A DNA stretch of 57,729 bases from Verrucomicrobiia bacterium (GTDB taxonomy: Bacteria; Verrucomicrobiota; Verrucomicrobiia; Limisphaerales; DSYF01): positions 1-57,729 of the forward strand of contig DASTWL010000073.1 in the NCBI GenBank assembly GCA_035765895.1, read 5' to 3'. The notes below the pieces were generated by a model. That model was given only the letters and a program-made list of their open reading frames with translations. It searched no databases and was not told the origin of the DNA. Below are positions 13,969 through 15,709 of this stretch, in pieces. Each line of letters starts with the position of its first letter. Positions within the stretch are counted from its first letter, which is position 1. Position numbers and translations under genes: made by a program.

Positions 13969-14241
13969 TTCCCCACAGAGACCGCTCCAAACCTTGCGCC
14001 GGGTGCCGTATTCCTTGCAAGGATCGCTCTGTTCCTTGCAAGGTTTGCTCCTTTCCTTACAAGGAAAACTCCAGTCCTTGCATGGAAAATCATTTTCCTT
14101 GCAAGGTTTGCTCCGGTCCTTGCATGGAAAACTGTTTTCCTTTTAAGGAAAATCATTTTCCATGTAAGGAAAATCGTTTCCCTTGCAAAGACTGCTCATT
14201 TCCTTGCAAGGAAAACTCCTTTCCGCGCAAGTTCGGTGTCC
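13969..14241. repeat. Array of 21-bp-spaced palindromes (core TCCTTGCAAGGA)
   Basis: Palindromic cores related to TTCCTTGCAAGG begin at 14011, 14032, 14053, 14074, 14095, 14116, 14137, 14158, 14179, 14200 and 14221, an exact 21-bp period. Degenerate copies at 13969 and 13990 keep the same phase. Variants change both arms in a compensating or centre-conserving way (CCTTACAAGG, CCTTGCATGG, CCTTTTAAGG, CATGTAAGG). Spacers alternate between GTTTGCTC-like and AAAATC(A/G)TT-like. The block fills most of the 670-bp gap between 13859 and 14531. Apparent reading frames here only reflect the 7-codon periodicity. No known element is recognised. Confidence 0.9.
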
Positions 14242-14530
14242 CGATTCGCGCCAGCGACCATGTTCTAATGGACATTGTTCGCACTCCTAATCATAAAAGC
14301 ACACTCCTTTTCCGTTAACGAACCGCGGTTTCGCCCTGCCCCGCCGTGGCATGTCTCCGGCTCAATCCCAGCCGCAGCCTTCGAGTTCACGCGCTTCCGC
14401 AAGCCGTTCTTGCGGGCCTTCATGGCGCGCGGCCCCAGGCTGAATCAGATGGCGGTAAAACCTCTAAACAAACGGGGCGCGTCACACCGACCCCGGAGGT
14501 CAACTCTGCCGTAAAACGAAAGGTAAAGTC

Positions 14531-15151
14531 ATGAGCTATGCCAAAGTCGGGCTGGACGGTTTGACGGTGCCAGCCAAAATCCAATACCTCCGCCGCCTCG
14601 TCGCGGCGCTGACGGGCAATCCAAACTTCCCCACCCCGAACCCCGCCGTGGCGGACCTGACGGCGGCGGCGGATGCGTTGGAAGCGGCCTACAACGACGC
14701 GCAGGCTGCCCGGCTGGTTTCCAAAACCAAGACCGGCATCCAGGACGCGCAGGCCCTGGACACGGACGCGCTGGTCAACCAGCTCGCCAGCTACGTGGAC
14801 AACGCCAGCGGAGGCGACGCGGAAAAAATCGCGAGCGCGGGTTTCGCCGTGCGCGCCACGCCAACGCCCGTGGGCGATCTGCCCGCGCCCACCGACCTGC
14901 AGGTGCTCCCCAGCGAGCACGCCGGCAGTGCGGACGTGTCGTGGAAGTCCGTGCGCGGCGCCCGCGCCTACGTGATCGAACGCGCCCCCGACGAGCCCAG
15001 CCTCAACTGGGCGGTCATTGGGACAAGCACGCGCGGCCGGGCCTCATTAAACACGATGACCAGCGGCCTCAAATACTGGTTCCGCGTCGCCGCCGTCGGC
15101 GCCGCCGGCCAGAGTGCGTGGAGCGACCCGGTGCCCTTGTTCGCGCCGTGA
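14531..15151 (+). CDS. Fibronectin type III domain protein
   Basis: 206 residues without a signal peptide. Residues 1-110 are helical and Ala-rich (YAKVGLDGLTVPAKIQYLRR, VADLTAAADALEAAYNDA). Residues about 118-206 form one fibronectin III domain: LPAPTDLQVLPSEHAGSADV, VSWKSVRGARAYVIERAPDE, GLKYWFRVAAVGAAGQSAWSDP. The start ATG is preceded by AAAGGTAAAGTC, a plausible ribosome site. Proteins of this layout occur repeatedly in Verrucomicrobiota, but their function is unknown to me. The gene stands alone and ends 25 bp before a strong terminator, so it is a single-gene transcript downstream of the palindrome array. Confidence 0.8.
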   Translation: MSYAKVGLDGLTVPAKIQYLRRLVAALTGNPNFPTPNPAVADLTAAADALEAAYNDAQAARLVSKTKTGIQDAQALDTDALVNQLASYVDNASGGDAEKIASAGFAVRATPTPVGDLPAPTDLQVLPSEHAGSADVSWKSVRGARAYVIERAPDEPSLNWAVIGTSTRGRASLNTMTSGLKYWFRVAAVGAAGQSAWSDPVPLFAP

Positions 15152-15209: not shown

Positions 15210-15288
15210 GTTTTTCTCCTTGGCAAACCTGACGCGCGGATTTAACAAGGCCGCCGCTCTTTGAATGGCGGATATTTCTCCGCCGCTT

Positions 15289-15430
15289 GCAATCAGGTGA
15301 CAGGGAACCCCGTGTGATTCGGGGACGGTTGCGCCACTGTAACGGGTTACGAGTTTCCATGGCCACTGGCTTTTGCCGGGAAGGCGGAAACGAGGATTGA
15401 AACCCGGAGTCAGGATACCGGCCTGGTTGT
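15289..15430 (+). promoter_or_regulatory. Cobalamin (B12) riboswitch
   Basis: Closing stem P1 pairs GCAATCAGG (15289-15297) with CCTGGTTGT (15422-15430). Inside are the family's conserved blocks in order: ACAGGGAA (15300-15307), CCCCGTGTGATTCGGGG, the B12-box-like GCCACTGTAAC (15333-15343), a GCCACTGG element near 15362, and GTCAGGATACC (15409-15419). The downstream hairpin CTCGTC...GACGAG (15432-15452) may belong to the expression platform; there is no following U-tract, so control may be at translation. The first gene downstream on this strand starts at 15710, about 280 nt away, with no gene between. Confidence 0.9.
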
Positions 15431-15709
15431 GCTCGTCAGTCGGGAGGACGAGTTGATGGTTGAAAGTTGATCGTTGATGGCGGGAACAAAAGTTTCCCAA
15501 GTCCAGCAACCTTCAACTAAACCGTCAGCCAGCCGCCCGCACTTCTCCGCCAAGAGAAGGATGAGGCCAGCCCGTTTCCGCCCGAGCGGAACGGAATGTG
15601 AATGCCTTCATTTCCATTTGGCGGGGATGAAGGTTTTTTGCCTTCGTCCCCCGCACTGGTCCTCGCAACCAAAAACTCCGCTCCCGCGGAATCGTCAGAA
15701 CCAGTGCCC

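Follow-up and report, generated by a model that had tools for sequence, protein, structure and literature searches.

The window, by which we mean the whole stretch of 57,729 nucleotides analysed here, is an entire contig from a probably verrucomicrobial genome and carries a tandem array of 21-bp units in a gap of ~670 bp upstream of a gene whose product contains a fibronectin type III (fn3) domain. The array is noncoding and intergenic. Flanking genes with a Pfam match encode fn3, DUF900 hydrolase, pilin-like and TPR proteins, and several others have no match. A cobalamin riboswitch is found just 3' of the fn3 gene; in one genome of the same genus, the riboswitch region is kept but has neither the array nor the fn3 gene upstream of it. 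The features of the locus are listed below.

13990-14010, no strand assigned: weak first unit AACCTTGCGCCGGGTGCCGTA, in the register of the array (unit list)
14011-14220, no strand assigned: array core of ten clear dyad-symmetric 21-bp units, consensus TTCCTTGCAAGGAAAACTCTT (TRF, unit list and lag identity)
14032-14157, no strand assigned: two 63-bp (three-unit) super-repeats (TRF period 63, 82% matches)
14221-14241, no strand assigned: degraded last unit TTCCGCGCAAGTTCGGTGTCC (unit list)
14346-14362, plus strand: possible sigma54 -24/-12 element GTGGCATGTCTCCGGCT (GG-N10-GC), weak when taken alone (p=0.12 in the window)
14531-15151, plus strand: gene for a 206-aa protein with a helical N-terminal region and a C-terminal fn3 domain (Pfam, AlphaFold2 and alignment)
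15278-15440, plus strand: cobalamin riboswitch (RF00174, 79.6 bits)

Eleven head-to-tail units built on TTCCTTGCAAGG occupy positions 14011-14241, and four of them (at 14011, 14032, 14095 and 14200) contain this 12-mer exactly. TRF reports a period of 21 at 14011-14231, with 10.5 copies and 68% matches. The lag-21 identity of 14011-14241 is 0.638, compared with a mean of 0.32 and a highest value of 0.39 in the null, which takes the maximum over lags 10-39 in 2,000 dinucleotide shuffles. An earlier note on this DNA, made from the sequence alone, had counted thirteen steps. There are ten clear units, a weak one at 13990 and a degraded one at 14221; a further unit at 13969 is unsupported, so the number is really 10-12. 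TRF also calls a 63-bp superperiod, spanning 14032-14169, and the super-repeats suggest that sequence was duplicated in steps that are multiples of 21 bp. The dyad symmetry of the window unit is significant (p=0.0005). The strands of the array are predicted to fold strongly (z about -11), as expected of any tandem dyad array. When the genome of the window was searched for the core at 21-bp spacing, the window array was the sole match.

The fn3-domain protein family and its upstream arrays

The product of the 14531-15151 gene matches Pfam fn3 (PF00041, E=3.4e-6), and a search of NCBIfam with it gave no match. The AlphaFold2 model (pLDDT 91) contains helices at residues 13-27 and 40-93, followed by the C-terminal fn3 domain. 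In fold searches, the fn3 domain resembles many fn3 structures, and the helical N-terminus, which is without a known family, gave weak matches only (best E 1.7, Z 5.4). Thirty members of the family align across ~206 residues. Of 196 genomes from the order, 21 contain homologues; the distribution is patchy, and a genome can have several copies (10 in G085, 7 in G020). Outside the order, our sample contains few full-length members, with clear ones in G332 and G437. We found no relatives of the protein in plasmid, phage and viral-contig collections, and no defence-system match with PADLOC.

A 21-bp-period array lies within 900 bp upstream of 26 of 32 homologues and downstream of none of 33 (Fisher p 9e-13). 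This count covers members with at least 600 bp of upstream sequence, and an array is defined as a period of 21, 42 or 63 bp in the 900 bp searched. The linkage was sampled within this order, with part of each genome read. We called arrays from their lag identity, using thresholds of our choice, and set the start codons of the homologues by rule. Removal of seven loci recruited through their arrays leaves 19 of 25. Averaged over 27 upstream regions, none of them recruited through arrays, the lag spectrum is flat at ~0.34 apart from lags 21, 42 and 63, where it reaches 0.54, 0.54 and 0.53 and has small shoulders at ±1 base. Two loci (L255 and L252) are scored as array-less, yet lag 21 ranks first in both. 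The 3' ends of the arrays lie at a median of 188 bp upstream of the start codon. The earlier note had suggested looking for conservation beside orthologues of the 14531 gene, which proved to be the right test. The window array and the fn3-domain gene form a module of two parts, with the array on the upstream side. At one locus (L260 802-2124, genome G133), a single array is followed by two tandem genes of the family.

Arrays without an adjacent intact family gene also occur, some of them in G248, G249, G104, G101, G222 and G246. The class may therefore be wider than the module, or it may include relics of the module.

The gene linkage also bears on whether the array could be an ordinary neutral minisatellite with chance symmetry that happens to lie near an unrelated gene. 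Tandem repeats are common, and the units here vary and duplicate as those of a minisatellite would. On the other hand, the arrays are confined to the upstream side, a shift of register is nearly absent even at high divergence, and 312 kb from other orders of the phylum contained no such array. Unless the linkage fails in an independent set of genomes, it refutes this explanation, to which we give very little credence.

The genes neighbouring the family members differ from locus to locus and are unrelated, so the array and the gene behave as a stand-alone cassette. Such a cassette might carry the array as a recombination or mobility site recognised by its structure, similar to attC or REP sites, and not as a regulator. 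The unrelated neighbours, the multiple copies per genome and the patchy distribution are consistent with mobility, and attC-like sites likewise conserve structure rather than sequence. However, no transposase or integrase was found among the sampled neighbours of the family loci, the phage, plasmid and viral-contig collections held no relative, and the array is present on one side of the gene only. We consider a mobility site improbable.

REP or BIME elements with their RAYT partners resemble the module in that clustered intergenic palindromes are tied to a dispersed gene. REPs have one sequence per genome, and their linked gene encodes a Y1 transposase. We rejected this assignment because the array sequence differs from locus to locus, the linked gene encodes an fn3 protein and not a transposase, and the core at 21-bp spacing is not dispersed in the window's genome.

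Conserved geometry and variable sequence

Across the gene-linked arrays, 276 of 278 units keep the exact register. The strict 21-bp register claimed by the earlier note is therefore invariant, and copies scattered at random with variable spacing, which it had set against its own proposal, were not found. As 21 bp is 2 x 10.5 bp and the register is kept, its statement that all palindromes face the same side of the helix also holds. Dyad symmetry is significant (p<0.05) in 21 of 26 arrays, with a combined p of 1e-29; the other five have p>0.05. The same note had read changes in the arms as preserving symmetry. In the window array, the 122 complementary cells do not differ significantly from the 119.3 ± 3.0 of shuffled arrays. 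All 26 gene-linked arrays together do have an excess (1978 against 1821.7 ± 14.5), which is inflated by the relatedness of units.

The sequence of the units, by contrast, is mostly not conserved. Unit sequences are mostly unrelated from gene to gene. The closest homologues (L239 and L257, with 62% and 61% identical proteins) have different units, and the units of a second family gene in the window's own genome (G000:C87, L237) differ from those of the window. Arrays contain about 5-16 units per gene. Some residual similarity exists, as 17 of 325 array pairs lie above 99.9% of the null, although some of these pairs were chosen by their core. The word GGAAA/TTTCC is present in 7 of 34 arrays; its enrichment is overstated since the null breaks the dyads. 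What is conserved is the period, the register, the dyad symmetry and the position upstream of the fn3 gene, and not TCCTTGCAAGGA itself.

One explanation for this pattern is a purely structural array, without any sequence-specific reader, in which supercoiling would cause the tandem dyads to be extruded as hairpins or cruciforms, or the DNA to curve. The cassette would then retain any array of the right geometry, and the units would turn over by 21-bp slippage. Such an element would leave the sequence free while the period, dyads and position stay. Consistent with it, single strands of the array fold far better than shuffled sequences (z -8 to -11), and stepwise turnover is suggested by the 63-bp super-repeats and by a duplicated leader followed by different arrays in G248. 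Free extrusion alone, however, requires neither exactly 21 bp nor the absence of 20- and 22-bp units, and the five arrays that are not clearly symmetric also speak against it. We regard this explanation as somewhat unlikely.

A related and also rather doubtful possibility is that the geometry itself is the signal. The arrays would be read by shape, by hairpins extruded through supercoiling or by a protein filament, and not by sequence. They would belong regularly to a dispersed gene cassette, in which register and symmetry are conserved and the sequence is free.

A period of 21 bp corresponds to seven codons and is divisible by three, and we therefore considered whether the arrays encode heptapeptide repeats. 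An open frame on the gene strand is present in 17 of 26 arrays. Nevertheless, a codon-position signal is absent from all 26 arrays (combined p 0.94), nine arrays are closed in every sense frame, and some of the open frames are without a start codon. We rejected coding on these grounds; this explanation is close to refuted, and the translated 7-residue periodicity that would have counted against the earlier note did not appear.

We also considered that the array might be transcribed into a leader or small RNA, rich in hairpins, that acts on the gene, in a layout like that of type III toxin-antitoxin systems. The order of the parts, array then gene, is the same as in those systems, and the predicted RNA folding is very strong. 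A bias toward G.U wobble pairs in the sense strand first gave p=0.005, but this was accounted for by a control for composition (57 G.U pairs against 46 ± 7, no excess). Selection at the level of sense-strand RNA, and with it the source of hairpin RNA proposed earlier, has no support once composition is controlled, and the absence of the G.U excess of a folded sense RNA favours action at the DNA level. In addition, promoter-like elements often lie between the array and the gene, a simple consensus scan of the gene strand at 14241-14531 of the window found no site resembling a terminator, and the gene product has an fn3 fold and no match to defence systems. An RNA function of the array is in our view unlikely.

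A possible multi-site enhancer or operator

We note that an array before most relatives of the fn3 gene, with its spacing kept and its sequence usually differing, points to an element of control or structure that has not been described. The roles proposed from the sequence, as an operator or in the structure of the DNA, are plausible. Between these, we favour a DNA-level multi-site enhancer or operator; its main rival is an element that acts by structure alone, as a cruciform or hairpin. In this proposal, to which we assign a probability of about 0.4, the array is an upstream cis-acting DNA element that controls the fn3 gene and is bound by a dimeric protein. The two-turn geometry, with dyads upstream of a gene, is suited to dimeric proteins bound in a row along one side of the helix. 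With 10-11 dyad sites spaced by exactly two turns (2 x 10.5 bp), dimeric DNA-binding proteins could line up side by side on one DNA face just upstream of the promoter, and the row of bound dimers may then act as a multi-site enhancer or operator of the fn3 gene. A protein reader, an effect on transcription and, in the window, a sigma54-type promoter are what we infer.

In the window, the candidate sigma54 element follows the array by 105 bp and precedes the start codon by ~170 bp. Across the family, the regions upstream of the genes are enriched in sigma54-like -24/-12 elements (combined p 9e-6, compared with 0.997 for the minus strand as a control). The window's genome has a gene for sigma54. 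A clear element of this type is present in a subset of the genes only, and several other promoters appear sigma70-like by eye. These points, the weakness of the window's own element and the arrays that stand without an intact family gene count against the proposal.

The proposed enhancer resembles the upstream activating sequences of sigma54 promoters (NtrC and NifA type), which are dyad sites on one helical face upstream of a promoter, and the family-wide enrichment of -24/-12 elements is in line with this; the candidate of the window is weak by itself (p=0.12). Known sigma54 enhancers consist of few sites with a conserved sequence and are bound by one activator. The arrays described here differ from them in their larger number of units and in that nearly every gene has its own sequence. 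A site sequence common to the targets of one activator was not found, only a weak preference for GGAAA/TTTCC. Sequences that are mostly unrelated between genes fit poorly with one sequence-specific regulator, and this freedom of sequence is the strongest argument against such a regulator.

Three further types of element were compared. Type III toxin-antitoxin systems (ToxIN, CptIN and TenpIN) also have a locus-specific tandem array directly upstream of one gene, as do the fn3 genes. Their repeats are about 34-45 nt long, are not dyads and form an RNA antitoxin, and their gene encodes an RNase of the ToxN fold, unlike the 21-bp dyad units and the fn3 protein found here. The C-terminal fn3 domain and the lack of a PADLOC match both argue against a ToxN-type RNase, and the helical N-terminus has no confident match. 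The consensus scan mentioned above found no terminator-like site between repeats and gene in the window. Iterons and partition centromeres are similar in that they consist of direct repeats with dyads, spaced by about two turns of the helix; they are found beside a rep or par gene, and each replicon has a single conserved repeat. This type was rejected, as no rep or par gene is present among the Pfam-matched flanks and the arrays recur with a gene that is not rep. CRISPR loci share with the arrays a partly palindromic unit and, sometimes, in related genomes, a leader-like AT-rich stretch. The core is made of uninterrupted 21-bp units in which the spacer belongs to the unit itself, and there is no constant repeat with unique spacers, so CRISPR was rejected, in agreement with the earlier reading. 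A search of the open-access literature found no description of the array or the module, and we found no described system that combines a fixed register, dyad symmetry and free sequence with linkage to one gene family.

With the module, a widespread and uncharacterised protein family acquires a regular noncoding partner, which provides a handle on its function. If geometry and not sequence is conserved, the arrays would offer a clean natural system for studying helical phasing and dyad symmetry in gene control, and they would be missed by every search based on motifs or alignments. Further elements of this type, with a strict register and a free sequence, may have gone unnoticed in front of other gene families.

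Distribution of 21-bp arrays

A degenerate core pattern at 21-bp spacing, searched in 313 genomes of the order, retrieved many further 21-bp arrays with other sequences; some of the matches are coding repeats of coiled coils, and the reversed control also scores in repeat-rich genomes. A sequence-blind lag scan for periods of 21, 42 or 63 bp found eight arrays in 291 kb of G248, five in 239 kb of G249 and two in 513 kb from other families of the order. In 321 kb of the genome to which the window belongs, taken outside the window, the same scan found none, nor did it find any in the sequence from other orders mentioned above. Most of these arrays are intergenic; one (L108, in G248) lies inside a long open frame and looks coding.

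In G248, a leader of ~200 bp is duplicated (L113 60-870; 96% identical), each copy is followed by a different 21-bp array, and the two arrays are about 500 bp apart. Several G248 arrays have an AT-rich leader that is loosely shared, and an alignment with these leaders did not recognise a shared leader in the window.

The nearest named relatives with a similar array are Verrucomicrobia MAGs, among them L049, which belongs to a member of the order (G104). Two arrays of this genome (L049 145-490 and L067 1-212) share an 88%-identical upstream stretch of ~100 bp. Their spacers, TTTGCTC/AAAACTC, resemble those of the window, and an intact fn3-family gene was not found with them. In genome G236, a mosaic array (L177 258-533) alternates the inverted half-sites CTGCAAAG, AAGCAAAG and CTGCACGG in a 21-bp register. 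A palindrome array in another order (L203 7072-7260, G409) has a period of 31 bp, or about three helical turns, and the core TTCCAATGATTGGAA.

A search with the CCTTGCAAGG core gave scattered matches in unrelated bacteria, which are not evidence of one family because the pattern was chosen by its core. Palindrome clusters are found in Roseibacterium persicicum (L047 1279-1345, L048 1820-1905, L050 7262-7327 and L053 5671-5805). They have the constant core CCTTGCAAGG and arms that differ and are perfectly complementary, and their centres are mostly 21-23 bp apart. The L050 cluster is located between two convergent genes.
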